Both the position numbers and the translations under genes were made by a program. Positions 29,226-63,710 of a stretch of DNA of 64,000 nt are shown here, piece by piece. The DNA is from Camarhynchus parvulus. Lineage: Eukaryota; Chordata; Aves; Passeriformes; Thraupidae. The DNA is taken from positions 29,152 to 93,151 of the forward strand of contig NW_022148864.1 in NCBI RefSeq assembly GCF_901933205.1. The letters run 5' to 3'. Each line of letters starts with the position of its first letter. Position 1 is the first letter of the stretch. The notes beneath the pieces were generated by a model. The model searched no databases. It was not told the origin of the DNA and saw only the letters and a program-made list of their open reading frames with translations.

Positions 29226-30930
29226 GTGAGAGGGGGACAGACGGACACTGGGGACATTGGGGGGGACAGACGGACATTGGGGACATTGGGGGGGGGACAG
29301 ATGAGACGGACATTGGGGATACTGGGGGTACAGACGACAGACGGACATTGGGGGGGGACAGACGGACATTGGGGGGGGACAGACGGACACTGGGGACATT
29401 GGGGGAGACAGACGGACAGACGGACATTGGGGGGACAGACGGACACTGGGGACATTGGGGGGGACAGACGGACATTGGGGACATTGGGGGGGACAGACGG
29501 ACATTGGGGGGGACAGACGGACACAGGACAGCGAGGGTGAGAGGGGGACAGACGGACACTGGGGACATTGGGGGGGACAGACGGACACTGGGGACATTGG
29601 GGGAGACAGACGGACAGACGGACATTGGGGGAGACAGACGGACACGGGCGGACAGCGGGGGGAGGGGGGACAGACGGACACTGGGGACATTGGGGACGGT
29701 CGGGGGACAGGACGGACATTGGGGACACTGGGGGGGACAGACGGACAGACGGACATTGGGGGGACAGACGGACATTGGGGACATTGGGGGGGACAGACGG
29801 ACAGACGGACATTGGGGGGACAGACGGACATTGGGGACATTGGGGGGGGACAGACGGACACAGGACAGCTTACGTGAGAGGGGGGACGACGGACACTGGG
29901 GACATTGGGGGGGACAGACGGACATTGGGGACATTGGGGGGACAGACGGACATTGGGGGGAGCGGACAGGACAGCGAGGGTGAGAGGGGGACAGACGGAC
30001 ACTGGGGACATTGGGGGGGACAGACGGACACTGGGGACATTGGGGGAGACAGACGGACAGACGGACATTGGGGGAGACAGACGGACAGACGGACATTGGG
30101 GGAGACAGACGGACACGGGCGGACAGCGACCGTGAGAGGGGGACAGACGGACACTGGGGACATTGGGGACATTGGGGGGGACAGACGGACATTGGGGACA
30201 TTGGGGGGACAGACGGACATTGGGGACATTGGGGGGGACAGACGGACACAGGACAGCGACGGTGAGAGGGGGACAGATGGACACTGGGGACATTGGGGGG
30301 GACAGACGGACAGACGGACATTGGGGGGGACAGACGGACACTGGGGACATTGGGGGGGACAGACGGACATTGGGGACATTGGGGGGGACAGACGGACAGA
30401 CGGACATTGGGGGGACAGACGGACATTGGGGACATTGGGGGGGACAGACGGACATTGGGGACATTGGGGGGGACAGACGGACATTGGGGGGGGACAGACG
30501 GACACTGGGGACATTGGGGGGGACAGACGAACATTGGGGACATTGGGGGGAGACAGACGGACATTGGGGACATTGGGGCAGACAGACGGACAGACGGACA
30601 TTGGGGGGGGACAGACGGACATTGGGGACATTGGGGGGGACAGACGGACACGGGCGGACAGCGACGGTGAGAGGGGGACAGACGGACAGACGGACATTGG
30701 GGACATTTTGGGGGACAGACGGACATTGGGGACATTGGGGACATTGGGGGAGGCAGACGGACATTGGGGACATTTTGGGGGACAGACGGACAGACGGACA
30801 TTGGGGGGGGACAGACGGACATTGGGGGGGACAGACGGACACAGGACAGCGAGGGTGAGAGGGGGACAGACGGACAGACGGACATTGGGGACACTGGGGG
30901 GAGGGGCAGGTGCGGTCGCGCCCGGGTGTG
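29226..30930 (+). repeat. Intron 8: GACAGACGGACATTGGGG minisatellite with donor echoes
   Basis: The unit is GGGACAGACGGACATTGGGG with GACATT. Modules resembling the exon 8 end plus donor (GGACAGCGACGGTGAGAGGG) recur with GT at 29537, 29874, 29980, 30132, 30262, 30667 and 30855. The array therefore contains seven decoy copies of the real donor at 29226. Confidence 0.95.
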
Positions 30931-31018
30931 TCCCCAGGTGTGTCCCCAGGTATGACCCCTCCGTGACCCCTCGGTGACCCCTCGGTGACCCCCGTGTGTC
31001 CCCTCCCCCCCCCCAGAG

Positions 31019-31108
31019 TCGCCCCCCGAGCCTGACCCCGCCCCTTTGCCGAGGCCCCGCCCCCTCCAGCCGCTGCTGCAGCTGCGGGCGCGGAGGAGGC
31101 AGCAACAG
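31019..31108 (+). CDS. KMT2B: KMT2B exon 9
   Basis: 90 nt, phase 0 at both ends when the second AG of the tandem acceptor CCCAG|AG is used; the first AG would break the frame. It encodes SPPEPDPAPLPRPRPLQPLL followed by QLRARRRQQQ. Human KMT2B has PRKPTLQPVLQLKARRRLDK here. The donor is CAG|GTGGGG. Between 30931 and 31018 lie CGGTGACCCCT repeats and a long C-tract. Confidence 0.9.
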
Positions 31109-32254
31109 GTGGGGGAGGGGCGGGAAAACCCGGGGGGGGGGAGGGGCAAAAATGGGGGTGGGGGAGGGGTAGAGTGAGCGGGAGGGGCAATAAAGGGGGA
31201 GGGACAGTAAAAGGGGAGGGGCAAAAACGGGGGGGGGCACAACAGGAGATGGGGCAAAAAGGGGAGGGGTAATAACGGGGGAGGGGCAAAAATGGTGTGG
31301 GGAGGGGCAAACAAGGGTGGGGGAAGGGCAGAATATGGGGGAGGGGCCATAACGGGGGGGGGCAAAAGTGGGGGAGGGGCAATAACGGGAGATGGGGGAG
31401 GGGGCAAAAATGAGGGGGGAGGGGCAAAAATGGGAGGGAGGCAATAACGGGGGAGGGGCAGTAAAGGGGGGAGGGACAATAAAGGGGAGGGGCAATAAAG
31501 GGGGAGGGGCAATAACGGGGGTGGGGTAAAAAATGGGGGAGGGGCAAAAATGGGGGAGGGGCAAAAATGGGGGAGGGGGAATAAAGGAGGGAGGGGCAAT
31601 AATGGGGGAGGGGCAATAACGGGGGGAAGGGCAATTGAGGGGAAAGGGAAAAATGGGGTGTGGGGGAGGAACGGGGAAAATGGGGGGAGGGGCAAAAAGA
31701 GGGGGGGTGGGGGAGGGGTAAAAATGGGGGGAGGGAGAGAATGGGGGTGGGGGAGGGGGAAAAAGAGGGAGGGGAACCCCAAAATTTGGGGTGGGGGAGG
31801 GGCAGAACAGAGGGGGAGGGGTAAAGTGGGGGGTGGGGGAGGGGTAAAAATGGGGAGAGAGGGGCAGAATGGGGGGGGAGGGGTAAATCAAGGGTGGGGG
31901 AGGGGCAAAAAATGGGGGAGGGGTAAAATGGTGGCGGGAGGGGGGGGAAGCCAAAATTTGGGGTGGGGGAGGGGAAAACCAGGGGTGGGGGAGGGGCAAA
32001 AATGTGGGGAGGGGCAAAAAGGAGAGGTAAAGTGGGAGTGGGGGAGGGGAAATTGGGGGTGGGGGAGGGGCAGAATGGGGGAGGGGAAGGGGCAACATGG
32101 GGGGAGGGGAGCCCAAAATTTGGGGCTGGGGGAGGGGAAATTGGAGGTGGGGGAGGAGCCAAAACTTGGGGGGGAGGGGTCAAAATGTGAAGGGGAGGGG
32201 CCAAAATTGGGGTGGGGGAGGGGCGGAGCTCTGACCCCTCCCCCCCCCCCTCAG
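31109..32254. repeat. Intron 9: GGGGAGGGGCAAAAATGGGG minisatellite
   Basis: Strongly purine-rich units (GGGGGAGGGGCAATAACGGG) run on the plus strand and end in a CTCCCCCCCCCCTCAG acceptor. No exon was seen. Confidence 0.95.
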
Positions 32255-32358
32255 GATTGGGGCCCCCCCGGAGCTTTGGGCCCCGCCCAGAACGGGTGGG
32301 GGAGGGGCCGGGCCGGCGACGGGGAGGGGCGGGGACGCGGCTGCGCGTGGACTTCAAG
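32255..32358 (+). CDS. KMT2B: KMT2B exon 10 (contains a frameshift)
   Basis: The acceptor is CCCCCCCCCTCAG and the donor GTGAGG. The 104 nt are not a multiple of three although both neighbours are phase 0. Read from the start it gives DWGPPGALGPAQNGWGRGR, in which NGW aligns with human FPNGWTGKQK. The end is conserved only in another frame, TRLRVDFK, matching human HRVRVDFK. A one-base loss or two-base gain in the G-rich middle (about 32290-32335) explains this. Sequencing error in a G-run is as likely as a real mutation. Confidence 0.75.
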
Positions 32359-35327: not shown

Positions 35328-38140
35328 GTACCCAAAACACCCCAAATCCACCCCAAATCCCCCAAAATCCCCAAACCTCAAAAAACCCTGGAATCCCCCA
35401 AAAAAACCCCGCGAAAATCCCAAAATCCGCTGAGTTTTTAGGGATTTTTAAAGATTTTAAATTGATTTTTTACGGATTTTTAATGGATTTTTGGGGGATT
35501 TTGGAGGCATTTTTAGAGGTTTAGGGTTTGAGGATTTTGGGATTGAGGAGCTCCAAATCCACCCAAAAAAATCCCAAATAAACAAAAATCCCCAAAACCG
35601 AACAAAATCCTGGAATCCCCCAAAAAAACCCCGCGAAAATCCCAAAATCCGCTGAGTTTTTAGGGATTTTTGAAGGGTTTAAATCGATTTTTTATGGATT
35701 TTTTATGGATTTTTGAGGGATATTTAAAGGTTTGGGATTGAGGAGCCCCAAAAATCCTGAAAATTCTCCCCAAAAATCCCCAAATCCCCCAGAAAATCCT
35801 AAAATCCCTTAAAAAACCCAATGAAAATTTAAAAATTTGTTGGTTTTTTGAAAGATTTTTTAAAGCGTTGGGGATTTGAGGATTTTGGGATTTAGGGTCC
35901 CAAAAAAGTGGAAAATCCCAAAATTCCCCAAAATTAAAAAAATAAATAATCCCAAAATCCCCAAAAAATCAAAAAATCCTCAAGAAATCCCCATGAAAAT
36001 CCCAAAATTCGCTGGTTTTTCGTGGATTTTTGGGGGATTTTGAGGCATTTTTAGAGGTTTGGGCTTCGTGAATTTTGGGATTGAGGAGCCCCAAATCCAC
36101 CCAAAAAAACCCCAAATTAACAAAAATCCCCAAAACCGAACAAAATCCTGGAATCCCCCCAAAAAAACCCCGCGAAAATCCCAAAACCCGCTGAGTTTTT
36201 AGGGATTTTTGAAGATTTTAAATCGATTTTTTACGGATTTTTTCATGGATTTTTGGGGGATTTTGGAGGCATTTTTAGAGGTTTGGGGTTTGAGAATTTT
36301 GGGATTGAGGAGCCCCAAATCCCCCAAAAAACCCCAAATTAACAAAAATCCCCAAAAAAACCCCACGAAAATCCCCAAATCCGCTGAGTTTTTAGGGATT
36401 TTTGAAGATTTTAAATACGATTTTTTCATGGATTTTTGGGGGATTTTGGTTTTTGAGGTTTATTTGAGTTTTGGAGGAGCCACAACAATTCAAAACCAAA
36501 CCCCCATATTATTTTATTTTTTTTTATTTTAATTTTGGATTTTGAGTTTTTAGATTAGGTTTGAGGATTTTTGGGATTGAGAGCCCCACCCAAAAATCCC
36601 AAATAACAAAAATCCCCAAAAAAATCCTGAATCCCCCAAAACCCCCCAAAAACCCCAAATCCTGTTTTAGATTTTTGAAGGGTTTAAATAGTTTTTAGTT
36701 AATTTTTGAGGGATTTTAGGTTTGATTGAGGAGCCCCAAAAATCCTGAAAATTCTCCCAAAAATCCCCAAATCCAAAAGAAAAATTAAAATCCCTTAAAA
36801 ACCCAATGAAAATTTAAAAATTTGTTGGTTTTTTGAAAGATTTTTTAAGCGTAGCTTTGAGGATTTTGGGATTTAGGGTCCCAAAAAAGTGGAAAATCCC
36901 CAAATTCCCCAAAATTAAAAAAATAAATAATCCCAAAATCCCCAAGAAATCAAAAAATCCTCAAGAAATCCCCATGAAAATCCCAAAATTCGCTGGTTTT
37001 TCGTGGATTTTTGGGGGATTTTGAGGCATTTTAGAGGTTTGGGCATGATTGATCCACCCAAAAATCCCAAATTAACAAAAATCCCAAAACCCAACAAAAT
37101 CCTTAATGAAAATCCCAAAACGATTTTTAGGATTGAAAAAATTTTATATGGATTTGGTTTTAGATTTAGCTTCGTGATTTTGGGATGGGAACCAACCACC
37201 CAAAAAATCCCAAATTAACAAAAACCCAAAACAAAAAATCCGAATCCCCAAAAAAAAATCCCAAACCGCTGAGTTTTTAATTTGAAAAAAATGTTTGGAG
37301 CATTTTAGAGTTTATAGGATTTTGGGATTAGGGCCACCCCAAATAACAAAATCCCCAAAACCGAAAAAATCCTGGAATCCCCCCAAAAAAACCCCGCGAA
37401 AATCCCAAAATCCGCTGAGTTTTTAGGGATTTTTGAAGGGTTTAAATCGATTTTTTATGGATTTTTTATGGATTTTTGAGGGATATTTAAAGGTTTGGGA
37501 TTGAGGAGTCCAAAAATCCTGAAAATTCCCCAAAAAAACCCTGTGCAAATCCCAAAATCCTAAATTTGGGGTTTGAGAGGCCCAAAAATTCAGAAATCCC
37601 AAAAAATCCTTAAAAATTCCACCCAAAAATCTCGAAATCCTCAAAAAAACCCCACCAAAAAATCCCCAAATTCTGTGATTTTTAGGGAATTTTAATGGAT
37701 TTTGAAAGGTTTGGGGTAGGATTTTGGGATTGAGGAACTCCAAAAATTCAGAAATCCCAAAAACTCCAAAACAATCCAGAAATCCCAAAAAAACCCCTCT
37801 GTGAAAATCCTGGGATTCGTTGATTTTTAAGGTATTTTTGATGGATTTTTTTTTTATTTTTTCAGGGAATTTTGAAGATTTACGGTTGGGGATTTTGGGA
37901 TTGAGGGATCCCAAAAATTGAGATATTCTAAAATTCCAAATAACCAAAAAATCCTTAAAAATCCCCCCAAAAAACTCCCAAAATCCCCCCAAAAATCTCC
38001 TCAATAATGTCAAAATTCGCAGAGTTTTTGGGATCTTTTCGGGATTGTTGGGGGGATTTTTTAAAGATTATTTTTGTTGATTTTTTGGGGATTTTTAAAG
38101 ATTTTTTTTAGGATTTTTGGGGGATTTTTTGGGAGATTTT
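35328..38140. repeat. Intron 11a: AAAATCCC / GGGATTTTT complex repeat
   Basis: Larger units of roughly 200 to 300 bp contain CCCAAAATCCGCTGAGTTTT and TGGAATCCCCCAAAAAAACC. At least seven copies are present (for example near 35410, 35645, 36005, 36180, 36375, 36980 and 37400). Each unit has an A/C-rich half followed by a G/T-rich half that is roughly its reverse complement, so it could fold into hairpins. Some copies are internally deleted (36540-37340). Confidence 0.85.
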
Positions 38141-39391
38141 TTGGGATTTTCAGGTCTCACCTGTTGCAGTTCCAGCTGTGCCCACCCGGGGGCGTTTTTC
38201 ATTCATTTTAATTCCATTTTGGGCCTTTTCACTCATTTTTGACGGGATTTTGGGGGGGATTTTTGGAGGTTTTATTTCGAAATTTCGGCATTTTTTGGGG
38301 GGACTTTTTGGGATCTTTTGGGGATTTTTTGGTGATTTTTAGAAAAATTTTTTAGGATTTTTTGGGGGATTTTTTTAGGATCTTTGTTGATTTTTTTTGG
38401 AGGATTTTTGGGGATTTTTGGATCTCACCTGTTGCAGTTCCAGCCGTGCCCACCAGGGGGCGCTTTTCGCTCATTTTGACGCATTTTGGGGCCATTTCGC
38501 TGGTTTTTAATGGGATTTTTTGGGGGACTTTTTTGGGAATTTGGGGATTTTTGGGGTCTCACCTGTGCCCTCACCTGTTGCAGTTCCAGCCGTGCCCAGC
38601 AGGGGGCGTTTCTCGCTCATTTGGGCGCATTTTGGGGCCATTTCGCTCGTTTTTAACGGGATTTTTTGGGGTTTTTGGGGATTTTTGGGGATTTTTTTTT
38701 TTTTGATCTCACCCGTGCCTCTTTCCCACAGCTGGTGCAGTTAGGGGTGCCCACCCGATTTGACGTTTGGGGCCATTGTTTTACGGGATTTTTTTGGGGG
38801 ATTTTTGGGGATTTTTTTGGGAATTTGGGGATTTTTGGGATCTCACCTGTTCCCTCACCTGTTCCCGCAGCTGGTGCTGTGCCAGCCGTGCCCACCAGGG
38901 GTCGCTTTTCACTCATTTTGACGCATTTTGGGGCCATTTCGCTGGTTTTTAACGGGATTTTTTGGGGGTTTTTTTTGGGGATTTTTTTGGGAATTTTTTT
39001 GGGAATTTCGGGATTTTTGGGGTCTCACCTGTGCCCTCACCTGTTGCAGTTCCAGCCGTGCCGAGCAGGGGGTGTTTTTCTCCCATTTTATTCCATTTTG
39101 GGGCCATTTCGCTCGTTTTTAATGGGATTTTTTGGGGTTTTTTTTGGGGATTTTTTGGGGGATTTTTTTGGGAATTTCGGGATTTTTGGGATCTCACCCG
39201 TGCCCTGCCCTGTTCCCACAGCTGGTGCAGTTCCAGCCGTGCCCACCAGGGGTCGCTTTTCACTCATTTTGACGCATTTTGGGGCCATTTCGCTCGTTTT
39301 TAACGGGATTTTTTGGGGGATTTTTTGGGGGATTTTTTTGGGAATTTCGGGGTTTTTGGGATCTCACCTGTTCCCTCGCCTGTTCCCGCAG
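38141..39391 (+). repeat. Intron 11b: tandem echoes of the exon 12 acceptor
   Basis: Seven units of about 140 to 270 bp each carry an acceptor and exon-like start: TGTTCCCGCAG|CTGGTGCTG or TGTTGCAG|TTCCAGCCGTG. Post-AG positions are 38170, 38438, 38584, 38732, 38871, 39050 and 39222. The real exon starts at 39392. The 38871 copy shares its first 15 bases exactly with the real exon. Between them lie CATTTTGGGGCCATTTCGCT and GGGATTTTTTGGGG stretches. Confidence 0.95.
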
Positions 39392-39538
39392 CTGGTGCTG
39401 TGCCAGGTGTGCTGCCAACCCTTCCACAGCTTCTGCCTGGGCGCGGGGGAGGCGCCGGGGCCGGGCCAGGCCGAGGGCTGGAGCTGCCGGCGCTGCCGCA
39501 GCTGCGGCGTCTGCGCCAGGAGGGGGCGCCACAACAAG
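39392..39538 (+). CDS. KMT2B: KMT2B exon 12 (rest of PHD1, start of PHD2)
   Basis: 147 nt, phase 0 at both ends. It encodes LVLCQVCCQPFHSFCLGAGE, then EGWSCRRCRSCGVCARRGRH. This supplies C-x-x-C, H-x-x-x-C and W-x-C-x-x-C of PHD1 and the C-x-x-C that opens PHD2. Human has LVFCQVCCDPFHPFCL and WCCRRCKFCHVCGRKGR. Zinc ligands visible here are intact. PHD1 to PHD3 regulate complex assembly and histone reading in MLL proteins. Confidence 0.97.
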
Positions 39539-43203: not shown

Positions 43204-44178
43204 GTGAGGGGGGAGGGGATTTGGGGGGGGGGTGTCAAATTTGGGGGATTTTGGGGGAATTTGGGGGATTTTGGGTGTATTTTTGGGGATTTTGGGGGAT
43301 TTTGGGAGGATTTTTTGGGATTTTGGGGGGATCCTTAAAGAGCTGGGGGGGATTTCAGGAATTTTAGGGGATTTTTGGGGGGATTTTGTCAAATTTGCGG
43401 GGTTTGGGGGTGGATTTTGGGGGATTTTGGGAGAGGTTTGGGGGGAATTTTGGAAATTTGAGGGGAATTTGGGGGGTTTTTGGCAGAGGATTTGGGGGAT
43501 TTTGGGAGGATTTGGGGTGGATTTTGAGGGGTTTGGGGAAATCGGAGGGGAATTTTGGGGGATTTTGGGAGGAGTTAAAAGCTTTGGGGAGGATTTTTGG
43601 GGTGGAATTTTGGAGATACTGGGGATTTTAGGAGATTTTGGAGGCAATTTTGGGTTAACTTCAGGACTTTTTGGTTGAATTTGGGATTTTTTGGGGTTAA
43701 ACTTGGGATGGTTTTGGTTGAAATTTGGGATTTTTTGGGGATAAATTTTTGGCTAAATTTGAGAATTTGGGGGATTCTTGGGTTAGATGTGGATATTTTT
43801 TTGGTTTAAATTTTGGATTTTTTGGGGGGTAAATTTGGGATGTTATGGGTTTAAATTTGGGATTTTTTGGATTGAATTTATGATGTTTTGGGGTTAAATT
43901 TGGGATTTTTTGGGGGGTAAATTTGGGATATTTGGGTTTGAATTTGAGATTTTTCGTTAAAGTTTGTGATTTTTGGGTTAAATTCGAGAGTTTTGGGGTT
44001 AAATTTGGGACATTTTGGGTTAAATTTGGGACATTTTGGGGTTAAATTTGGGATTTTTTGGGGTTAAATTTGGGACATTTTGGGGTTAAATTTGGGATTT
44101 TTTGGGGTTAAATTTGGGACATTTTGGGGTTAAATTTGGGATTTTTTGGGTCTGACCCCTCCCCCGCTCTGTTCCCAG
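43204..44178. repeat. Intron 14: GGGGATTTTGGG then TTAAATTTGGGAT repeats
   Basis: G-rich units run to 43620, then TTGGGGTTAAATTTGGGAT. I looked here for the human exon that carries PHD3 (tyrosine- and cysteine-rich, with CPICTRCYED) and found nothing like it on either strand. Confidence 0.85.
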
Positions 44179-44265: not shown

Positions 44266-46056
44266 GTGAGCGGGGGAGGGGAACCCCAAACCGGGGGAGG
44301 GGGGGACCCCAAAACTGGGGAGGGGTTGGGAACCCCAGAATCCCTTTGGGAACCCCAAAATTGACACCGGGAACCCCAAAAATCCCTTTGGGAACCCCAA
44401 AATCTTCTCAGGATCCCCAAAAATCCCTTTGGGAACCCCAAAAATCCCTTCGGGAACCCCAAAAGTGACACCGGGAACCCCAAAATTGGGAGGTGGGAAG
44501 CCAAAATTCCCTTCGGGAACCCCAAAATCTTCTCAGGATCCCCAAAAATTGCATCAGGAACCCCAAAATCCCTTTGGGAACCCCAAAAATCACTTCAGGA
44601 ACCCCAGAATTGACACCAGGAACCCCAAAATTGGCGGGGGAAACCCCAAATCCCTTTGGGAACCCCAAAATCCCTTTGGGAACCCCAAAATCGGGCGTTG
44701 GGGTGGGAATCCCAAAATGGGGGTGGGAACCCCAAATCCCTTTGGGAACCCCAAAATTGACGCCGGGAACCCCAAAAATCCCTTTGGGAACCCCAAATTC
44801 ACACCAGGAACCCCAAATCCCTTTGGGAACCCCAAAATTGACACCGGGAACCCCAAAAATCCCTTTGGGAACCCCAAAATTCCCTTCGGGAACCCCAAAA
44901 TCTTCTCAGGATCCCCAAAAATTGCATTAGGAACCCCAAAATCCCTTTGGGAACCCCAAAATCCGTTCAGGAACCCAAAAATTGACACCAGGAACCCCAA
45001 AATCGGGGGTTGGGAACCCCAAATCCCTTTGGGAACCCCAAAATTCCTTTGGGAACCCCAAAATCGGGGGGTGGGAACCCGAAATCTCCAGATCCCCAAA
45101 AATGCACAGGAACCCCAAAATCGCTTGGGAACCCCAAAATGATCCGGCAATTTCCCCAGGACCCCAAATCCTCTCAGACCCAAAATTCATTCTACCCCAA
45201 TAGGGATCTTTTCAGGAATTCCAAAACGGCTCAGGAACCCCAAAATTCACAGCAGGCCCCAAAATCTTCAGGACCCCAAAATTCACAGGACCCCAAAATC
45301 CCTTTGGGAACCCCAAAATCGGGCGTTGGGGTGGGAATCCCAAAATTGGGGGGGTGGGAACCCCAAATCCCTTTGGGAACCCCAAAATTGACACCGGGAA
45401 CCCCAAAAATCCCTTTGGGAACCCCAAATTCACACCAGGAACCCCCAAACCCTTTGGGAAGAAAAACCTTGGAACCCCAAAAATCTTCTCAGGACCCAAA
45501 TTGCATAGAACCCCAAAATCCCTTTAGGAACCCAAAATTACACGGGAACCCCAAAATCGGGGGTTGGGAACCCCGAAATCTTCTCAGGATCCCCAAAAAT
45601 TGCATCAGGAACCCCCAAAATCGCTTTGGGAACCCCAAAATTGATGCCGGGAACTCGAAAATTTCCCCAGGAACCCCCAAATCCTCTCAGGAACCCCAAA
45701 ATTCATTTTGGGAACCCCAAAATTTCCCCAGGGATCTTTACAGGAATTCCAAAATCGACATCAGGAACCCCAAAATTCACAGCAGGAACCCCAAAATCTT
45801 CTCAGGATCCCCCAAAATCGCCCCAGGAACCCCAAAAATCCCCCCAGGAACCACCCCAAAAAAAAATTCCCTTGGGACCCCAAAAATTCTTTTCGGGACC
45901 CCCCAAAATTCTCTCGGGAGCCCCAAAAATTCCCCCCAAAACCCCCAAAGCCTCTTGGGGTTCCCCAAAAACCTTTTCAGGACCCCCAAAAATCCTCCCC
46001 AGGGGAGCTCTGGCCCCGCCCCCTTTTTCTGACCCCGCCCCTTTCCCCTCCCCCAG
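44266..46056. repeat. Intron 15: GGGAACCCCAAAATCCCTTT minisatellite
   Basis: Units of about 22 bp combine GGGAACCCCAAAATCCCTTT with GACACCGGGAACCCC. Several higher-order copies occur (44480-44950 resembles 44880-45150 and 45300-45600). Degenerate and deleted units occur at 45130-45560. The array ends about 60 bases before the acceptor. Confidence 0.95.
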
Positions 46057-51202: not shown

Positions 51203-51288
51203 CGAGGCCCCGCCCCTCCCCGTGGAGCCGCCCTCCAGTGACCACACCTACGCCAGGTGGCGCCTGGAGCCGGCCCCGCCCCTCTCAG
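51203..51288 (+). CDS. KMT2B: KMT2B exon 20
   Basis: 86 nt, phase 2 to 1, between TTCCCTCCCCCAG and GTGAGT. With the split asparagine codon it encodes EAPPLPVEPPSSDHTYARWR followed by LEPAPPLS. Human has AVLPPSLDHVYAQWRQQEPE. Phases agree on both sides. Confidence 0.94.
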
Positions 51289-51849
51289 GTGAGTTTAGCC
51301 ACGCCCACCCCCGGCCACGCCCCTCTCAGGTGAGTTTAGCCACGCCCACCCCCCGGCCACGCCCCGGCCACGCCCGCACGGATGAGACTTGGCAACCCCA
51401 AAACGCATGGGGAGCCACGCCCACTTTGGAGCAAGGCCACGCCCACTCTGAGTTCATTTGTGCAAGCCACGCCCACTGTGAGCTCATCTGTGCAAGCCAC
51501 GCCCACTCTGAGCTCATGCGCACACCCAGCTAAGCCACGCCCACTCTGAGCTCACCTGAGCAAGCCACGCCCACTCTGAGCTCCTTTGTGCACGCCTGGC
51601 TAAGCCACGCCCACTCTGAGCTCACTTAGACAAGCCACGCCCACTCTGAGCTCCTCTGGGCAAGCCACGCCCACTGTGAGCTCATCTAGGCAAGCCACGC
51701 CCACTCTGAGTTCATCTGGGCAAGCCACGCCCACTCTGAGCTCACCTGACCAAGCCACGCCCACTCTGACCTCACCTGTCCACACCTGAGCTCAGCTGTG
51801 CCCCTGTGGGCGTGGCCCCGCGCTGACCCCGCCCCTTTTCCCCGCCCAG
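51289..51849 (+). repeat. Intron 20: GCCACGCCCACTCTGAGCTC minisatellite
   Basis: About 15 units of 30 bp (AAGCCACGCCCACTCTGAGC with TCATCTGGGC) contain KLF-type CCACGCCC motifs. The first units copy the exon 20 end plus donor: CCCCTCTCAG|GTGAGTTTAG at 51280 is repeated at about 51320. Confidence 0.95.
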
Positions 51850-51953: not shown

Positions 51954-53028
51954 GTGAGACAGACGGGACGGGGGAGGGGCTCAGGTGAGCACAGGTGAGG
52001 GGGAGGGGCTCGGGTGAGCACAGGTGAGGGGGAGGGGCTCAGGGTGAGCACGGGTGAGGGGGGAGGGGCTCGGGTGAGCACAGGTGAGGTGGTTTGGGGG
52101 TTCAGGTGAGTGCGGAGAGGTGAGGGAGGGGCTCAGGTGAGTGGGACAGGTGAGACACAGGGGACACGTGAAGGGGGAGAGGCTCAGGTGAGCAGGGAGA
52201 CAGGTGAGGGGGTTTGGGGGATTTGGGGCTCAGGTGAGGGGGGACAGGTGTGGGCGGAAGGGGCTTAGGTGAGGGAGGGGCTCAGGTGAGGAGGGAGGGC
52301 CTCAGGTGAGCTGGGACAGGTGAGGGAGGGGCTCAGGTGAGACGTGGGACAGGTGAGGGGGAACAGGTGAGACAGGTGAGGGGCTTGGGGGGATCTGGGA
52401 CACAGGTGAGGGGGGAGGGGCTCAGGTGAGGGGATTTGGGGGCTCAGGTGAGCGGGGCCAGGTGAGAGGATTTGGGCTCAGGTGAGCACAGACAGGTGAG
52501 AGAGGGGCTCAGGTGAGGGAGGGGCTCAGGTGAGGGGATTTGGGGGCTCAGGTGAATTGGGACAGGTGAGAGGATTTGGGCTCAGGTGAGAGATAACACA
52601 GGTGATACACGGGGAGCAGGTGAGAGTGCCCAGGTGAGACAGGTGAGGGGGTTTGGGGGATTTGGGGTTCAGGTGAGTGCGGACAGGTGAGGGAGGGGCT
52701 CAGGTAAGACAGGTGAAGGGGGGAGGGGCTCAGGTGGATGGGGACAGGTGAGGGAGGGGCTCAGGTGAGACACAGGAACAGGTGAGGGGCTTTGGGGTTC
52801 AGGTGAGTGCGGACAGGTGAGGGGGGAGGGGCTCAGGTGAGGGGGAGGGGTTCAGGTGAGGGGATTTGGGGGCTCAGGTGAATCGGGACAGGTGAGAGGA
52901 TTTGGGCTCAGGTGAGCTGGGACAGGTGAGGGAGGGGCACAGGTGAGGGTGTCCAGGTGAGACAGGTGAGGGAGGGGCTCAGGTGAGGGAGGGGCTCAGG
53001 TGAGCTGACACAGGTGAGGGGGTTTGGG
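51954..53028 (+). repeat. Intron 21a: CAGGTGAG donor-consensus array
   Basis: Units such as GGGGCTCAGGTGAGGGGATT begin at the exon 21 donor itself (GCGCAG|GTGAGAC). I count about 48 perfect CAGGTGAG strings in 1.07 kb. Each equals the optimal CAG|GTGAG 5' splice site and contains a CAGGTG E-box. Nothing else is visible here. Confidence 0.97.
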
Positions 53029-53480
53029 ACTCAGGAATTTTGGGGGTTTTGGGGTTTTTAGGGGGGATTTTCTTGGGGGTTTTTGGGGAGGGGTCCCTGC
53101 ACCCGTCCCTAATTTGGGGAGGGGTCCCACAGGACGAGAAGGGATCTTTGAGGAATATTTTGGGGCAAAACCCCAATTTTGGCTCATTCCAGCCCCTTTT
53201 AGTGCCACAAATTCCAGGTTTTTTCATTTTTGTGAGAATTTTCGTGGGGTTTTTTTTGGGGAGGGTCCCTGCACGGCCGTCCCTAATTTGGGATGGGGTC
53301 TCACAGGACAAGGAGGGGTCCCTGGAGAGTATTTTGGGGGAAAACCTCCAATTTTGGCTCATTCCAGCCCCTTTAAGTGCCAGAAATTCAGTTTTTTTCA
53401 TTTTTGGGGGGATTTTCGTGGGGTTTTTTTTGGGGAGGGGTCCCTGCGGCCCATCCCTAATTTGGGGAGGGGTCCCGCAG
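53029..53480 (+). repeat. Intron 21b: two echoes of the exon 22 acceptor
   Basis: A 174-bp unit occurs in tandem and its last copy merges into exon 22. Post-AG positions are 53133 (CCCACAG|GACGAGAAGG), 53307 (CTCACAG|GACAAGGAGG) and the real 53481 (CCCGCAG|GACGAGGGGC). Each is preceded by CCCTAATTTGGG(G/A) and GGGGTC. The echoed exon part is about 12 to 20 bases long. Confidence 0.95.
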
Positions 53481-53618
53481 GACGAGGGGCGCCTGCTGTA
53501 CATGGGGCAGAACGAGTGGACCCACGTGAACTGCGCCCTCTGGTCGGCCGAGGTCTTCGAGGAGGGCGACGGAACTCTCCGGAACGTGCACGCCGCCGTG
53601 GCCAGGGGCCGCCAGATG
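53481..53618 (+). CDS. KMT2B: KMT2B exon 22 (extended PHD)
   Basis: 138 nt, phase 0 at both ends. It encodes DEGRLLYMGQNEWTHVNCAL, then WSAEVFEEGDGTLRNVHAAV and ARGRQM. Human has GRLLYIGQNEWTHVNCAIWS, AEVFEENDGSLKNVHAAVAR and GRQM, the best-conserved stretch in the window. It is the W-x-H-x-x-C part of the ePHD. The human exon that follows (RCELC onward) was not found. Confidence 0.98.
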
Positions 53619-53937
53619 GTGGGGAGGGGTCCCGGGGGGTTTGGGGGTTTTTAGAGGGGGTCTTGGATGGGATTTTGGGTTTTTTAAGGGGGATTTTGGG
53701 TTTTTTTGGGAGGGATTTTGAGGTATTTTTTAGGGTGGTTTTGGGGGACATTTGGGATTTTTGGGGGGTCCTGGAGAGGATTTTGGGAAGGATTTGGGGG
53801 GGGGTCTGGCACATGGTCAGGGGCCGGCAGATGGTGGGGAGGGGTCCCAAGGGGATTTGGGGTCTTTTGGGGGGGTCCTGGAAGGGATTTTGGGGGGATT
53901 TTGGGGGTCTCGGGGGAATTTTTGGGTGGTCCTGAAA
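53619..53937 (+). repeat. Post-exon 22 region with donor echo
   Basis: G-rich repeats contain one near copy of the exon 22 end and donor at 53811-53850: GGTCAGGGGCCGGCAGATG|G against the real GGCCAGGGGCCGCCAGATG|G. Both continue GTGGGGAGGGGTCCC. The copies are 216 bp apart. Confidence 0.9.
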
Positions 53938-55060: not shown

Positions 55061-55800
55061 TCAGCGATGGGACCATTTGGGGTCCCCAGGAGCTTGGGTC
55101 CCTATAGGGACAGGAGACACCAGGTCCCCGTCACCCATAGACTTCTATGGGGATGGGAGACACCAGGTCTACCCCCTGCCTCACCCATTGAGACCAATTT
55201 TGGGGGTTCCCCCAGGAGCTTTTGGGGGTTCTCCCGGAACCTTTGGGGTGTTCCTGCCAGGCCAGGGCCGCCTGCTGGCGGGGGACGTGAGTCTGGGGGG
55301 TTCCTGGGGGGGATTTGGGGTGTTGGACGGGTGTTTGGGGGTATTGGGGTGCCTTGCTCAGGGACGAGAGTTCTGCCAGGGGCCGGGAGTTCTGCCCCCT
55401 GCTGGCCGGGGACGTGTTCTGCAGGTTTGGCCGCGTGCTGGGGGGATTTGGGGGGTCCTGGCTGGGATTTGGGGGGTTTGGGGGTGTTTGGGGGGTTGGG
55501 GGCCCTGCTCGGATTTGGGGTTTAGGGTGGTTTGGGGGTTTGCTCTGGGGGTACGTAGAGTTGAGTGGGGTTGGGGGGCCCTGGGGGGATTTGGGAGGTC
55601 CTGGCTGGGATTTGGGGGGTTTGGGGGGTCCTGGCGGGGGTTTGGGGGGTCCTGGCTGGGATTTGGGGTATTTTGTGGGGTTTTGGGGGGTTTCTATGGG
55701 GTTACGTAGAGTTAAAATTGGGGTTGGGGACACCCAGGGGAGATTTAGGGTGGTCCTGAGAGAATTTAGGGGGTCCTGGGGAGGTTTTGGGGTTCCCTTC
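55061..55800 (+). pseudogene. KMT2B: Possible degraded remnant of the exon after exon 22
   Basis: Between the 38-bp array and the next array lie two GC-rich islands. The first, 55249-55287, reads FLPGQGRLLAGD and then GTGAGT. In human this exon ends FCQKHTDLLDGK and its successor starts EIVNPDG. The second, about 55371-55425, has GAGTTCTGCCAGG and CTGCTGGCCGGGGACGTG, again resembling FCQ...LLDGK. The zinc-binding core (RCELC, CCLSSC, FHFMC) is absent. Assignment rests on order, a donor and about five residues, so it is weak. The rest is G-rich repeat. Confidence 0.3.
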
Positions 55801-58800
55801 AGGAGCTGGTGCGGGACGGGGGTTTCTGTAGGATTTTGGGGTTTTTATGGATATTTTGTAGGATTTTGGTGGTTTTGGGGTTGAATTTTGGGTTTTTGCC
55901 TCAGGAGTTGGTGCGGGACGGGGGTTCTGAAGGATTTGGGGTTTTTTTGGGGTGGAATTTTGTGTTTTTGGGGTTCCCTTCAGGAGCTGGTGCGGGACGG
56001 GGGTTCCGTAGGATTTTGGTGGTTTTTTAGGATTTTGGGGTTTTTTTGGGGTTGAATTTTGTGTTTTTGGGGTTCCCTTCAGGAGCTGGTTCGGGATGGG
56101 GGTTCTGTAGGATTTTGGGGGATTTTGTAGGATTTTGGGGGGTTATGGATATTTTGTAGGATTTTGGTGGTTTTGGGGTTGAATTTTGGGTTTTTGCTGC
56201 AGGAGCTGGTGCAGGACGGGGGTTCTGAAGGATTTGGGGTGTTTTTGGGGTGGAATTTTGTGGTTTTGGGGTTCCCTTCAGGAGCTGGTGCGGGACAGGG
56301 TTTCTGTAGGATTTTGGTGGTTTTTTAGGATTTGGGGGTTTTTTTGGGGTTGAATTTTGTGTTTTTGGGATTCCCTTCAGGAGCTGGTTCGGGACGGGGG
56401 TTCTGTAGGATTTTGGGGGATTTTATAGGATTTTGGGGGTTTTATGGATATTTTGTAGGATTTTGGGGGTTTGGGGGTTGAATTTTGGGTTTTTGCTTCA
56501 GGAGCTGGTTCGTGACGGGGGTTTCTGTAGGATTTTGGGGGTTTTATGGATATTTTGTAGGATTTTGGTGGTTTTGGGGTTGAATTTTGGGTTTTTGCTG
56601 CAGGAGCTGGTGCGGGACGGGGTTCTGAAGGATTTGGGGTTTTTTTGGGGTGGAATTTTGTGTTTTTGGGGTTCCCTTCAGGAGCTGGTTCGGGATGTGG
56701 GTTCTGTAGGATTTTGGTGTTTTTTTAGGATTTGGGGGTTTTTGGGGTTGAATTTTGTGTTTTTGGGGTTCCCCTCAGGAGCTGGTGCGGGACAGGGTTT
56801 CTGTAGGATTTTGGTGTTTTTTAGGAGTTTTGGGGTTGAATTTTGTTTTGGGGTTCTTGGGGCTGGTTTGTGGTTGGGATTTTGGTGTTTTTTTGGGTTT
56901 TTGGGGAATTTTTGTGTTTTGGGGTTCCCTTCAGGAGCTGGTGTGGGACGGGGTTTCTGTAGGATTTTGGGGGATTTTGTAGGATTTTGGGGGTTTTGTG
57001 GTTGAATTTTGATGTTTTTGGGGTTGAATTTTGTGGTTTTGGGGTTCCCTTCAGGAGCTGGTGCGGGACGGGGGTTTCTGTCGCATTTTGGGGGTTTTTG
57101 TAGGATTTTGGGGTTTTTTGTAGGATTTTGGGGTTTTTGGGGTTCCTGAGTCAGATTTTGATGGTTTTGGGGCTGAATTTGGTGGTTTTGGGGTAGAATT
57201 TTGATGTTTTTGGGGTTCCCTTTGGGAGCTGGCTCAGGACGGGGGTTTCTGTAGGACTTTGGGGGTTTATGGATATTTTGTAGGATTTTGGGGTTTTTGG
57301 GGTTGAATTTTGGGTTGCTTCAGGAGCTGGTGCGGGGTCTGAAGATTTTGGTGTTTTTTAGATTGGGTTTTGGGGGTTAATTTTGTGTTTTGTGCAGGAG
57401 TTGGGGGGGGGGTTTCTGTAATTGGGGTTTATGGATATTTTGTAGGATTTGGGGTTTTTGGGGTTGAATTTTGGGTTTCTGCTGCAGGAGCTGGTGCAGG
57501 ACGGGAGTTTTTATAGGATTTGGGTTGTTTTGGGGTTGAATTTTGTGTTTTTGGGGTTCCCTTCAGGAGCTGGTGTGGGACAGGGTTTCTGTAGGATTTT
57601 GGTGTTTTTTTAGGATTTGGGGTTTTTTTTGGGGTTGAATTTTGTGTTTTTGGGGTTCCCTTCAGGAGCTGGTGCGGGACGGGGGTTCTGTAGGATTTTG
57701 GTGGTTTTTTATGATTTGGGGGTTTTTTGGGGTTGAATTTTGTGGTTTTGGGGTTCCCTTCAGGACCTGGTGCGGGACGGGGTTTCTGTAGGATTTTGGG
57801 GGATTTTGTAGGACTTTGGGGGTTTTATGGATATTTTGTAGGATTTTGGTGGTTTTGGGGTTGAATTTTGGGTTTTTGCTGCAGGAGCTGGTGCAGGACG
57901 GGGGTTCTGAAGGATTTGGGGTTTTTTTGGGGTGGAATTTTGTGGTTTTGGGGTTCCCCTCAGGAGCTGGTGCAGGATGGGGATTCTGTAGGATTTTGGG
58001 GTTGTTTTGGGGTTGAATTTTGTGTTTTTGGGGTTCCCTCAGGAGCTGGTTCGGGATGGGGATTCTGTAGGATTTTGGTGTTTTTTGGTTTGGGGGTTTT
58101 TGGGGTTGAATTTTGTGTTTTTGGGGTTCCCTTCAGGAGCTGGTGCAGGGACAGGGTTTCTGTAGGATTTTGGTGTTTTTTTAGGATTTGGGGGTTTTTT
58201 TGGGGTTGAATTTTGTGTTTTTGGGGTTCCCTTTGGGAGCTGGTTCGGGATGGGGATTCTGTAGGATTTGGGGTTTTTTTGGGGTTGAATTTTGTGTTTT
58301 TGGGGTTCCCCTCAGGAGCTGGTGCAGGACGGGGGTTCTGTAGGATTTGGGGTTTTTTTGGGGTTGAATTTTGTGGTTTTGGGGTTCCCTTCAGGAGCTG
58401 GTGCGGGACAGGGTTTCTGTAGGATTTTGGTGTTTTTTTAGGATTTGGGGTTTTTTTTGGGGTGGAATTTTGTGTTTTTGGGGTTCCCCTCAGGAGCTGG
58501 TTCGGGATGGGGATTCTGTAGGATTTTGGTGTTTTTTTAGGATTTGGGGGTTTTTTGGGGTTGAATTTTGTGTTTTTGGGGTTCCCCTCAGGAGCTGGTG
58601 CGGGACGGGGGTTTTTATAGGATTTGGGGGTTTTTTTAGGATTTTGGGGTTTTTTTGGGGTTGAATTTTGTGTTTTTGGGGTTCCCTTCAGGAGCTGGTG
58701 CGGGACAGGGTTTCTGTAGGATTTTGGTGTTTTTTTAGGATTTGGGGTTTTTGGGGTTGAATTTTGTGTTTTTGGGGTCCCCTTCAGGAGCTGGTGCGGG

Positions 58801-59650
58801 ATGGGGATTCTGTAGGATTTTGGGGTTTTTTTGGGGTTGAATTTTGTGTTTTTGGGGTTCCCTTCAGGAGCTGGTGCGGGACGGGGTTTCTGTAGCATTT
58901 TGGTGTTTTTTTAGGATTTGGGGTTTTTTTTGGGGTGGAATTTTGTGTTTTTGGGATTCCCTTCAGGAGCTGGTTCGGGACGGGGGTTCTGTAGGATTTT
59001 GGGGGATTTTATAGGATTTTGGGGGTTTTATGGATATTTTGTAGGATTTTGGGGTTTTGGGGGTTGAATTTTGGGTTTTTGCTTCAGGAGCTGGTTCGGG
59101 ACGGGGTTTCTGTAGGATTTTGGGGGTTTTATGGATATTTTGTAGGATTTTGGTGGTTTTGGGGTTGAATTTTGGGTTTTTGCTGCAGGAGCTGGTGCAG
59201 GACGGGGGTTCTGAAGGATTTGGGGTTTTTTGGGGTGGAATTTTGTGTTTTTGGGGTTCCCCTCAGGAGCTGGTGCGGGACGGGGGTTCTGTAGCATTTT
59301 GGTGTTTTAGGATTTGGGGGTTTTGGGGTGGAATTTTGTGTTTTGGGATTCCCTTCAAGAGCTGGTTCGGGCGGGGGTTCTGTAGGATTTTGGGGATTTT
59401 ATAGGATTTTGGGGGTTATGGATATTTTGGGGTGTTTGGGGGGTTGGGGGTGGAATTTTGGGTTGTTTTTCGGGGAATTTGGGGTTTTCGGGTTGGGGTT
59501 TTGGGGGGTTTTGGGGGGGTTTGGGATTTTGTGGGATTTTGGTGGTTTTGGGGGTTGATATTTTGGGTTTTTTTGGGAGGTGGTGCAGGGGGGGTTTGAA
59601 GTTTGGGTTTTTGGGGTGGATTTTGTGTTTTGGGGTTCCCTCAGGGGGGA
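55801..59650 (+). repeat. Acceptor-echo array (CTTCAG|GAGCTGGTGCGGGAC)
   Basis: At least 35 units of about 80 to 120 bp each carry TTGGGGTTCCCTTCAG, then GAGCTGGTGCGGGACGGGG and TTCTGTAGGATTTTGG. The post-AG sequence reads ELVRDGGFCRIL in the best copies (for example 56499 and 55801), compared with human EIVNPDGFDVLR at the start of the next KMT2B exon. None continues into the conserved VYVDFEGI block. I interpret this as amplified copies of the acceptor and first codons, with the rest of the exon not found. Confidence 0.85.
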
Positions 59651-60390
59651 GGGTTGGGGAGTGGGGGCGATTTTGGGGGATTGGGGGGGATCAGCCTTAG
59701 GAAATTCTGGGGGTTGGTGGGTTTGGGATAGGTGTTTGGGGGGGATTTGGGTTGTTTGGGATTTGGGGGGGTCCCGGTTGGGGGATTTTGGGGGTTTTGG
59801 GTTTGGGGTCTGGGGGTTTTGGGGGGATTTTGGGGGGTTTGGGATTTTGGGGGTTTTGGGGAGGTTTTGGGAGGAGGATATTTTGGGGGGATTTTTTGGG
59901 GGGTGGTTTTGGGGGTTTGGGAGTTTTGGGGGATTTTTTGGGGAGGGTTTGGGGGTTTTGGGGTGTTTTTGGGGATGTTGGGAGTTTTGGGGGGTTTTGG
60001 GGGGTTGAGAGTTTTGGGGTTTTGGGGGTTTGGGTTTTTGGGGTTTTGGGGGGATTTGGGTTTTTGGGTTTGGTTTGGGGTTTTGGGGGGTTTGGGGGTT
60101 TTGGGTGGGTTTGGGGTTAGTGGGATTTTTGGGGGAATTTTTGGCTCTTGAGGAGGGAAGTGGGATTTTGGGGGTTTTGGGGATTTGGGAGGGGTGATTT
60201 TGGGGTTTTTGGGGTTTTGGGCGTTTTTGGTTCTTTGGGAGGGTTTCGCAGGGGTGTGGGAGGGGTTTTGGGATTTTGGGTGTTTTGGAGGTCTTTGGGG
60301 GGGGTTGAGAGTTTTTGGGGTGTTTCTGGGAGTTTTGGGGTGTTTGAGGGGGATTTTGGGGTGGATTGGGGTTTGGGGATTTGGGGGGGA
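59651..60390. repeat. GGGGTTTTGGGGG repeats
   Basis: Low-complexity G/T repeat (GGGGGTTTTGGGGGGTTTGG) on the plus strand. No exon was seen. The FYRN-donor array starts beyond it. Confidence 0.9.
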
Positions 60391-61950
60391 TTGGGACGTA
60401 TTGGGATGGTTTGGGACAAGCTGGGAGGGATTGGGATGATTGGGATAAACTGGGAGGAACTGGGAGGGACTGGGATGGACTGGGATAAACTGGGAGGGAC
60501 TGGGAGAGAACTGGGAGGGGACTGGGAGAGAACTGGTTTATACTGGGATGGACTGGGAGGGACTGGGAGGGGACTGGGAGGGGACTGGTTCATACTGGGA
60601 TGGGTGCGAGGGACTGATTTTCTGACAATACTGGGAAAATGGCTCTTCCAAGTGGGGTAAACGAGTGAGGAACTGGGACAAACTGGTGGACTGGGACAAA
60701 CTGGGACAAACTGGGACAAACTGGGATAAACTGGGAGGAACTGGGAGGGACTGGGATGGTTTATACTGGGAGGGACTGGGAGAGAACTGGGAGGGGACTG
60801 GGAGAGAACTGGTTTATACTGGGATGGACTGGGAGGGACTGGGAGGGGACTGGGAGGGGACTGGTTCATACTGGGATGGGCTGGGAGGGACTGGTTTATA
60901 CTGGTTATACTGGGAGGAATGGCTCTTCCCCGTGGGGTACCAGTGAGTGAACTGGGACAAACTGGGACAAACTGGGACAAACTGGGACAAACTGGGAGGG
61001 ACTGGGAGGGACTGGGAGGGACTGGGAGGGACTGGTTTATACTGGGAGGGACTGGGAGAGAACTGGGAGGGGACTGGGAGAGAACTGGTTTATACTGGGA
61101 TGGACTGGGAGGGACTGGGAGGGGACTGGGAGGGGACTGGTTCATACTGGGATGGGCTGGGAGGGACTGGTTTATACTGGTTATACTGGGAGGAATGGCT
61201 CTTCCCCGTGGGGTAACAGTGAGTGAACTGGGATAAACTGGTTTATACTGGGAGGGACTGGGAGGGACTGGGAGAGAACTGGTTTATACTGGGATGGGCT
61301 GGGATGGACTGGGAGAGAACTGGTTTATACTAGGAGAGAACTGGTTTATACTGGGAGGACTGGTTTATACTGGGAGGGACTGGTTTATACTGGTTATACT
61401 GGGAGGAACGGCTCTTCCCAGTGGGATACCAGTGAGTGACTGGGATATACTGGGAGCGACTGGGAGGGAACTGGTTTGTACTGGGAGGGGCGCCTGTTCC
61501 CCGTGGGATACCAGTGAGTGAACTGGGATGGACTGGGAGGGACTGGGATGGACTGGGAGGGACTGGGAGGGACTGGGATGGACTGGGATGGACTGGGAGG
61601 GACTGGGAGGGACTGGGATGGACTGGGAGGGACTGGGAGGGACTGGGATGGACTGGGATGGACTGGGATGGACTGGGAGGACTGGGAGGGACTGGGATGG
61701 ACTGGGATGGACTGGGAGGGACTGGGATGGACTGGGATGGACTGGGATGGACTGGGTTGGACTGGGAGGGACTGGGAGGGACTGGGATGGACTGGGATGG
61801 ACTGGGATGGACTGGTTTGTAGTGGTTTATACTGGGATGGACTGGGAAGGACACCTGTTCCCTATGGGATACCAGTGAGGGACTGGTTTATACTGGTTTA
61901 TACTGGGAAGGGCAGCTGTTCCCAGTGGGATACCAGTGAGGGACTGGTTT
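60391..61950 (+). repeat. ACTGGGAGGG array with FYRN-exon donor echoes
   Basis: Units GGGATGGACTGGGAGGGACT contain seven modules that resemble the end of the KMT2B FYRN exon plus donor, near 60640, 60921, 61195, 61409, 61490, 61850 and 61914. The best (61490) reads EGRLFPVGYQ with CA|GTGAGTG, where human has EGRLFPIGYQ. The modules at 60921-61200 and 60640-60920 lie in 265- to 285-bp higher-order units. The exon's upstream part (SIRIDSLGTLSDLSDC in human) is absent. The real donor cannot be told from the echoes. Confidence 0.9.
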
Positions 61951-63659
61951 ATACTGGTTTATACTGGTTTGCACTGGTTTGCACTGGTTTGTCCAGGTCT
62001 GTACTGGTCCGTAATGGTCTGTACCAGTACCTACTGGTTTATACTGGTTTGTACTGGTTTGTACTGGTTTGTTCTGGTTTGTACTGGCTTATACTGGTTT
62101 GTGCTGGTCCATACGGGTCTGTGCTTGTTTGTACTGGTCCATACTGGTTTGTACTGATGTGTACTGGTTTATACTGGTCTGTACTGGTTTATACCGGTTT
62201 GTACTGGTTTATACTGGTTTGTACTGGTTTATACTGGTTTGTACTGGTTAGGTGCTGGTGGCTGTACTGGAGCGTGCAGGTTTATACTGGTCCGTACTGG
62301 TTTGTACTGGGGTTACTGGTTTGTACTGGATTATACTGGTCTGTACTGGTCCATACTGGTCCATACTGGTCCATACTGGATTATACTGGTTTATACTGGT
62401 CCATACTGGTTTCCGTAGGTGCTGGCGGCTGTACTGGAGCACGCAGGCCCCTGCTGGGTTATACTGGGCTATACTGGGTTATACTGGGCTATACTGGGTT
62501 ATACTGGGTTATACTGGGTTATACTGGTCTGTAGGGCTCTATATCAGTTTCTATCAGGTTATACTGGGTTATACTGGTTTATACTGGTCCATACTGGTCT
62601 GTAGGTGCTGGCGGCTGTACTGGAGCACGCGGGACGTCCCTGCTGGGTTATACTGGGTTATACTGGGTTATACTGGGTTATACTGGGTTATACTGGTTTA
62701 TACTGGTCCATACTGGGTTATACTGGTTTATACTGGTCCATACTGGTTTTAGGTGCTGGCGGCTGTACTGGAGCACGCGGGACGCCCCTGCTGGGCTATA
62801 CTGGGCTATACTGGGTTATACTGGGTTGTACTGGGTTATACTGGGTTATACTGGTCTATAGGGCTCTATATCAGTTTCTATCAGGTTATACTGGGTTATA
62901 CTGGTCCATACTGGTCCATACTGGTCCATACTGGTCCATACTGGTCCATACTGGTTTCCGTAGGTGCTGGCGGCTGTACTGGAGCACGCGGGACGCCCCT
63001 GCTGGGTTATACTGGGTTATACTGGGTTATACTGGTCCATACTGGTTTATACTGGTTTATACTGGTCCATACTGGGTTATACTGGTCCATACTGGTCCAT
63101 ACTGGTTTTAGGTGCTGGCGGCTGTACTGGAGCACGCGGGAGGCCCCTGCTGGGCTATACTGGGTTATACTGGGCTATACTGGGCTATACTGGGTTATAC
63201 TGGGTTATACTGGTCTATAGGGCTCTATATCAGTTTCTATCAGGTTATACTGGGTTATACTGGTCCATACTGGGCTATACTGGGCTATACTGGGTTATAC
63301 TGGGCTATACTGGTCTATAAGGCTCTATATCAGTTTCTATCAGGTTATACTGGGCTATACTGGTCCATACTGGTCCATACTGGTCCATACTGGTCCGTAG
63401 GTGCTGGCGGCTGTACTGGAGCACGCGGGACGCCCCTGCTGGGTTATACTGGGCTATACTGGTCCATACTGGGCTATACTGGGCTATACTGGTCTATAGG
63501 GCTCTATATCAGTTTCTATCAGGTTATACTGGGTTATACTGGTCCATACTGGGTTATACTGGGTTATACTGGTCCATACTGGGTTATACTGGGTTATACT
63601 GGTCCATACTGGGTTATACTGGGCTATACTGGGTTATACTGGTCCATACTGGTCTGTAG
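61951..63659 (+). repeat. TATACTGGTTTATACTGG array with FYRN-exon acceptor echoes
   Basis: Units of TACTGGTTTA, TACTGGGTTA and TACTGGTCCA contain copies of an acceptor plus exon start, TAG|GTGCTGGCGGCTGTACTG, with exon-like starts at 62252, 62419, 62604, 62753, 62964, 63112 and 63401. After the initial G, which completes the split glutamine of GYQ, they read CWRLYWSTRDA; human reads CSRLYWSTVDA. A marker GGCTCTATATCAGTTTCTAT accompanies several units. Confidence 0.92.
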
Positions 63660-63710
63660 GTGCTGGCGGCTGTACTCGGAGCACAACGACCACGCCCACG
63701 GGACCCCCTG
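63660..63710 (+). CDS. KMT2B: KMT2B FYRN-region exon, internally deleted or fused copy
   Basis: This is the last of the eight GTGCTGGCGGCTGTACT modules. It does not continue as STRDA but runs directly into GAGCACAACGACCACGCCCA and CGGGACCCCCTG|GTAACG. It reads CWRLYSEHNDHAHGTP. Human KMT2B has CSRLYW at the start and EENQTIVHSPAP at the end of a much longer FYRN exon. Read literally, about 30 residues of FYRN core are missing. This could be a deleted exon, a fused echo or a repeat-assembly artefact. Confidence 0.45.

Follow-up and report, generated by a model that had tools for sequence, protein, structure and literature searches.

Copies of exon edges and splice signals in KMT2B introns of Camarhynchus parvulus: probable exon stuttering, with one echo tract in another gene

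The present study asks why the introns of KMT2B in Camarhynchus parvulus contain copies of the edges of neighboring exons together with their splice signals, copies that we call echoes. The window, i.e. the whole stretch of DNA analyzed, covers 64,000 nucleotides (C1223:29152-93151; contig C1223 is NW_022148864.1) of a 1.05-Gb genome assembly in 1343 contigs. KMT2B lies on its + strand, recognized by Pfam from a CXXC domain (PF02008, 1.2e-13) and from PHD fingers (PF00628) in two stretches, and 17 exons (E) were modeled with AG/GT edges, each open in some frame. Nearly every KMT2B intron in the window is an array. The evidence supports exon-edge copies with splice signals in adjacent introns well beyond chance, and these are probably a case of exon stuttering, in which tandem duplication acts under selection on the exon and its splice sites.

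Ten junction strings (exon edge plus intron edge, 34-45 nt) were searched for on the + and - strands at a tolerance of 8-10 edits. The exon 8 donor gave 22 matches, comprising the source, seven copies with 1-4 edits (29525-30876), and 14 more distant matches (7-8 edits), most of which represent the general array unit. Beyond their sources, the exon 12 acceptor had four copies (2, 7, 8, and 8 edits), the exon 20 donor one (1 edit; a second, apparently unrelated match at 26665 has 8 edits), the exon 22 donor one (3 edits, plus a weak - strand match at 26432 with 8 edits), and the exon 22 acceptor two old copies in intron 21 (8 and 10 edits of 42, at 53106 and 53283). Further downstream, the E24a acceptor had 37 matches, the last of which (8 edits) is doubtful; the E24b (FYRN) donor had seven on the + strand and two on the - strand at 2.6-2.75 kb; the E25 acceptor (the FYRN acceptor) had seven, the last being a hybrid with the 3′ edge; and the E25 donor had three, one of them the hybrid. 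Apart from the two E24b matches and the weak E22-donor match on the - strand, copies in the window were direct. An original prediction, made by reading the sequence, had listed eight echoed edges, and seven of these were recovered, its probable next exon being E24a; the eighth, the exon 21 donor, had no match besides itself, and the donors of exons 20 and 25 had been absent from the list. Its judgment that the pattern is too recurrent for chance holds, since copies are present at nine edges and all ten strings had 0 matches in each of five first-order Markov resamples of the window, which keep whole-window and not local composition. Chance similarity of GC-rich sequence is accordingly rejected for the nine edges other than the exon 21 donor, and as a general explanation it is highly improbable, although it does apply to that donor and to several low-complexity edges.

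The junction search for the exon 21 donor, made over the window on both strands, returned only its source. An echo is rejected here; only the splice consensus (CAG/GTGAG; a slash marks a splice junction) recurs in intron 21, where CAGGTGAG occurs 48 times in 1.5 kb as against 7 times in the rest of the window. As a separate observation, these copies could be read as acceptor (CAG) and donor (GTGAG) simultaneously. An alternative explanation for the echoes could be that copies are retained for a splicing role, as decoy acceptors or donors or as ratchet points (CAG/GTGAG). The 48 CAGGTGAG and the exact AG/GAGCTGG kept in 31/37 E24a matches are consistent with such a role, but some copies have no signal, one in the intron of a KIRREL-like gene reading CAGGGAG, and we consider this explanation very unlikely.

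Hron et al. 2026 (PMC12954441) described exon stuttering, or sequence stuttering, in chicken dot chromosomes, and in the literature from 2024 on these terms were found in that paper only. The original prediction held that no named class of repeat was like this one; exon stuttering is such a class. PMC12954441 reports 236 introns in 115 genes, 190 of these introns on dot chromosomes, with the source at the exon border in >90% of cases and exon parts of 20-187 nt (median 36) present in 1-44 copies. It also reports extensive intron length variation between birds and repeat expansions in some other birds, describes the expansions as strictly local, a property outside its three main features, and suggests replication stress, G-quadruplexes, or meiotic conversion. 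The KMT2B echoes resemble those cases as that paper presents them in that exon edge and splice site recur as imperfect tandem copies, in direct orientation, along the neighboring intron, in that introns are full of local simple repeats (Tandem Repeats Finder, TRF; 74/93 blocks), and in that the paralogue KMT2A, on a larger contig, is without echoes (0/30 edges). The echoed exon parts are by eye roughly 15-35 nt (25-27 nt for exon 8), compared with the published 20-187 and median of 36. With regard to exon intactness, also a feature of exon stuttering, the 17 modeled exons are open in some frame, with two phase steps, and the bodies of E23-E25 were not found. Differences are that KMT2B has 0 mentions in the main text of PMC12954441, that the host is C. 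parvulus and not chicken, that a different gene, on the opposite strand, contains one KMT2B echo tract, unlike the strict locality reported there, and that near-helical unit lengths, found here, are not mentioned in the relevant parts of that paper. Measured against those parts, exon stuttering as a phenomenon was known already, and the gene KMT2B, the echo tract in another gene, and the near-helical unit lengths are new, extending exon stuttering to another bird, probably a songbird, and to a chromatin gene.

If the echoes arose by duplication under selection, tandem duplications would occur all along the introns of the contig, and a duplicated segment spanning an exon-intron junction would put an extra exon edge and splice site inside the intron without altering the real exon or the splice site next to it. 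Selection would tolerate such junction-spanning duplications and reject those altering exon or splice sites, and exon sequence found in introns would be edge sequence for that reason; in this model junctions are the innermost place where duplication is harmless. Subsequent duplication, deletion, and conversion within an array would either homogenize and multiply the unit, as for E24a, or allow it to decay, as for the E22 acceptor. For E8, E12, E20, and E22, echoed exons that are themselves present, the copy nearest the exon is the source, in agreement with the prediction of the duplication-selection model, and splicing would then use the exon-proximal site. Introns can also be gained by tandem duplication of AGGT-containing exon sequence; there too tandem duplication multiplies splice motifs, but the KMT2B copies lie in existing introns and no new intron was seen inside a modeled exon.

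Random tandem duplications and deletions were simulated, retaining those that left exons and splice edges intact, under six settings with 40 introns (80 edges) each, and 0.28-0.70 of edges became echoed, compared with 4/33 seen by exon letters. This bears on the mechanism advanced in the original prediction, in which replication slippage or break repair is seeded at exon-intron junctions in GC-skewed DNA; a junction-specific event of this kind might also be an R-loop or a stalled fork. Such seeding would be consistent with the repeated echoing of several edges of one gene and with the positive GC skew, on the sense strand, of the 2-kb windows containing most echo introns. However, nearly all introns are arrays and yet 29/33 intact-exon edges have no echo by exon letters, and neither the exon-20 intron (GCCACGCCC units) nor the E25-donor array (TAATTAACGC units) is G-rich on the sense strand. 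Because the unbiased duplication model yields more echoes than are seen, no special seeding at junctions is needed; we regard it as unlikely, and selection would explain the edge bias instead.

Several points weigh against duplication under selection or limit what may be concluded from it. The simulation settings were arbitrary and demonstrate sufficiency only. When 24 nt of exon alone were used for the 33 edges of intact exons, with a score of at least 14 required in the adjacent intron, only 4/33 edges reached it (E8 donor 20, E12 acceptor 17, E20 donor 17, E22 donor 16); 6/33 edges, the E20 donor among them, scored 14-17 in non-adjacent introns, mostly G- or C-rich strings, and 5/126 exon-interior 24-mers also reached 14, a weak contrast between edge and interior. 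The KMT2A control, with 0/30 edges at threshold and a maximum score of 12, comprises 10.6 kb of intron in all, in short introns, with exon limits from tblastn. Moreover, the strongest arrays have no visible source exon, one echo tract is not local, and the evidence base is the genomic sequence of one individual in one assembly. Among 20 dinucleotide shuffles of each adjacent intron, 14 was reached only for the E8 donor. This donor alone passes the published bit-score rule, 3/5 proximal hits and 0/7 distal ones reaching at least 42.1 bits (42.1-46.1), and ten mononucleotide shuffles gave at most 30.2 bits. The KMT2A locus lies on contig C24; of the 12 exon rows between its PHD region and FYRN, nine agree with a KMT2A probe sequence at 83-100%, and the other three cross introns. 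Intron 5 at 23350 and 23950 shows, by eye, a possible old copy of the interior of exon 5 (score 15-16 of 24), which may be chance.

The arrays without a visible source belong to exons 23-25, whose bodies were not found in the window, nor as KMT2B elsewhere in the assembly, by a search that a badly broken copy could escape. Genome-wide, the exon bodies gave 14 matches, of which four lie on the KMT2A contig C24, two on C2 and C29 (one per contig), and eight are weaker, none resembling a KMT2B body; those on C2 and C29 are taken to be other KMT2 members, both contigs also having FYRN and FYRC matches. The E23-E25 identities in the window are thus putative and come from homology. In KMT2A the FYRN region consists of three exons, namely VVPENGFEV..MMIG; GSMTIDCLG..LFPIGYQ, ending ..GGCTATCA/GTGAGT; and G/TGCTCCAGGGTGTACTGGAGC ..EHDDNRTIAHSPVPLTG/gtaatc. 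Edges in the window match these in order and phase: GAGCTGGTGCGGGACGGGG (ELVRDG), GGGATACCA/GTGAGTG (..LFPVGYQ), G/TGCTGGCGGCTGTACTGGAGCACGCGGGAC (CWRLYWSTRD), and GAGCACAACCGGACCATCGCCCACGGGACCCCCG/GTAATT (EHNRTIAHGTP), and the KMT2A exons give the same E24b and E25 edges and phases as the window echoes. The 93,151-bp contig C1223 terminates at the window end, inside an array, and the next contig, the 8-kb C1063, begins inside that array (99% over about 100 bp) and continues with KMT2B-like coding sequence (IQQLDGADDG.., by eye). The missing bodies are probably an assembly loss, since C1063 resumes the coding sequence and deletions seem, by eye, frequent in places (for example at about 59.3-60.6 kb), with real deletion as an alternative that may apply. 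Stuttering introns can disrupt both gene models and assembly; here, neither the FYRN exons nor the latter half of the extended PHD was found.

It is then reasonable to ask whether the echoes themselves are partly artefacts of long-read consensus in repeats. In favor are the failure to locate exon bodies for E23-E25 in the assembly, the position of the contig end within an array, the stretches that are deletion-rich by eye, the 5′ and 3′ edges of E25 fused at 63653-63715, apparently at a common GGAGCAC, and the two phase steps among modeled exons (E8/E9, E9/E10). Against this, copies differ from each other in substitutions and in unit arrangement, the joined exons E10-E22 are open in one frame, and PMC12954441 states that one such intron, in PHF8, was verified in raw reads. 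We consider an artefact quite unlikely. Stretches that look deletion-rich by eye relative to neighboring repeat units, perhaps from poor consensus, are 36460-37340, 45080-45560, 57300-57480, and 59300-60640.

One echo tract is not confined to KMT2B. The E24b tract at 61350-61558 (+) has an inverted partner at 2804-2573 (-), 58 kb away, in an intron of the KIRREL-like gene, with 205/209 aligned bases identical (98%) and three gaps; the two tracts agree in the order of their two echo versions. Searched against the genome, this tract scored 272 bits with the KIRREL-intron copy and 108 bits with the best off-contig match among the 40 of 328 candidates scored, unlike dispersed minisatellites, which it resembles in that its ACTGGG motif has 289 matches in the genome, many on small contigs. 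At 16 further ACTGGG loci (L025-L040, one on contig C1223) the nearest match to either E24b echo was 9-12 edits of 29-31 letters away, as in unrelated samples. The E24a unit is local, with 34/37 genome matches on C1223 and the remaining three scoring close to 58 bits. ACTGGG-family arrays are present in several introns, and recombination between them could carry an echo elsewhere; the simplest reading is that ectopic conversion between such arrays carried the E24b echo, from KMT2B to the KIRREL-like gene since the exon originates in KMT2B. The sense strand is the G-rich one in KMT2B and in the KIRREL-like gene alike. The KIRREL-intron copy may, alternatively, be an assembly fault.

Array structure offers a second handle on mechanism. 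TRF found arrays throughout the window (533 overlapping rows), and length-weighted autocorrelation over the window peaked at 10, 21, 31, 42, 52, 62, 72-73, 82, 93, 103, 114, and 124 nt. On contig C1223, 74/93 1-kb blocks were strongly periodic, and in 70/74 of these, over arrays of different sequence, the main lag was 9-12, 19-23, or 30-33 nt, i.e. units of about 10, 21, or 31 nt, close to an integral number of helical turns. In five samples taken on other small contigs, chosen for carrying ACTGGG arrays, 10/25 blocks were strong, and 9/10 of these fit the near-helical lags; ten loci on larger contigs had 0/44. Counter to a helical unit length, the periodic blocks are not independent, many sharing C4A4T-like or ACTGGG motifs, and some units are off these lengths (C1063 17 nt, intron 8 29, intron 9 17, the 54-kb array 38, the E24a array 99). 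Literature listings near the topic showed none that deals with helical unit lengths of arrays in birds. Tentatively, the stuttering introns of small bird chromosomes might be one recombining network that exports exon edges to the introns of other genes, with units born near whole helix turns (about 10, 21, 31 nt), which would suggest that helix or nucleosome geometry constrains the duplication step. An exon-derived marker traceable between genes and a near-helical unit length would both be of use in following the mechanism.

Table 1. Positions of exons, echoes, and related features in the window
Feature	Position	Strand	Basis
KIRREL-like Ig-domain exons flanking the intron with the non-local copy	1400..3350 (limits approximate)	-	sequence relatives
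Inverted non-local copy of KMT2B FYRN-donor echo tract in KIRREL-like intron; pairs with 61350-61558 (+)	2573..2804	-	alignment
KMT2B exon 8, origin of donor echo	29014..29225	+	exon model, echo searches
Intron 8 array with exon-8-donor echoes at 29525, 29647, 29968, 30120, 30250, 30655, 30843	29226..31016	+	junction search, bit-score screen
Exon-12-acceptor echoes at 38559, 38855, 39025, 39206, upstream of exon 12 (39392-39538)	38559..39391	+	junction and exon-letter search
Single exon-20-donor echo (51315) directly after exon 20 (51203-51288)	51289..51350	+	junction and exon-letter search
Intron 21: 48 CAGGTGAG (splice consensus, not exon echo) and two old exon-22-acceptor echoes	51954..53480	+	junction search, motif count
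KMT2B exon 22, first half of extended PHD	53481..53618	+	exon model, homology
Exon-22-donor echo	53813..53848	+	junction and exon-letter search
Possible exon-23-donor edge remnants (..LLAGD/gtgagt), exon body not found	55245..55420	+	by eye, uncertain
Exon-24a-acceptor echo array, CAG/GAGCTGGTGCGGGACGGGG (ELVRDGG..), 37 matches	55788..59660	+	junction search; homology to KMT2A VVPENGF exon
FYRN (exon 24b) donor echoes ..LFPVGYQ, GGGATACCA/GTGAGTG, 7 matches	60642..61948	+	phase agrees with KMT2A exon
Exon-25-acceptor echoes TAG/GTGCTGGCGGCTGTACTGGAGCACGCGG (CWRLYWSTRD), 7 matches	62407..63696	+	homology to KMT2A CSRVYWSTTD exon
Exon-25-donor echoes (EHNRTIAHGTP/gtaatt), two full copies and hybrid at 63673; array runs on into C1063	63673..64000	+	junction search

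KMT2B is essential in mammals. Here its contig is unplaced, and a third PHD finger was not found at 43204-44178, between E14 and E15, where Pfam gave two stretches in the gene and a tblastn probe no third; it may be lost in the lineage or missing from the assembly. The joined exons form a single open frame from E5 to E8 and another from E10 to E22, and exon 9 as modeled (29225 / 31017-31108 / 32255) sits one phase step away from exon 8 as well as from exon 10. Exon 9 or the adjoining exons may be imperfectly modeled, through other splice sites, a missing small exon, or indels; splicing from a downstream exon-8 echo was considered by eye as a possible remedy for the phase steps. At the window start, Ig exons on the - strand had KIRREL1 as the best of 31 solved relatives (4e-5, the match spanning both exons) and DCC as the second (1e-4). 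A FYRC match on contig C485 covers the same profile part as the FYRC of KMT2A and probably belongs to KMT2B. On C1063 (L064), a further donor echo, GGCCAG/gtcagtg, occurs ten times at 1354-4900; we take the first occurrence for the actual KMT2B exon, and the sequence around the last one differs.

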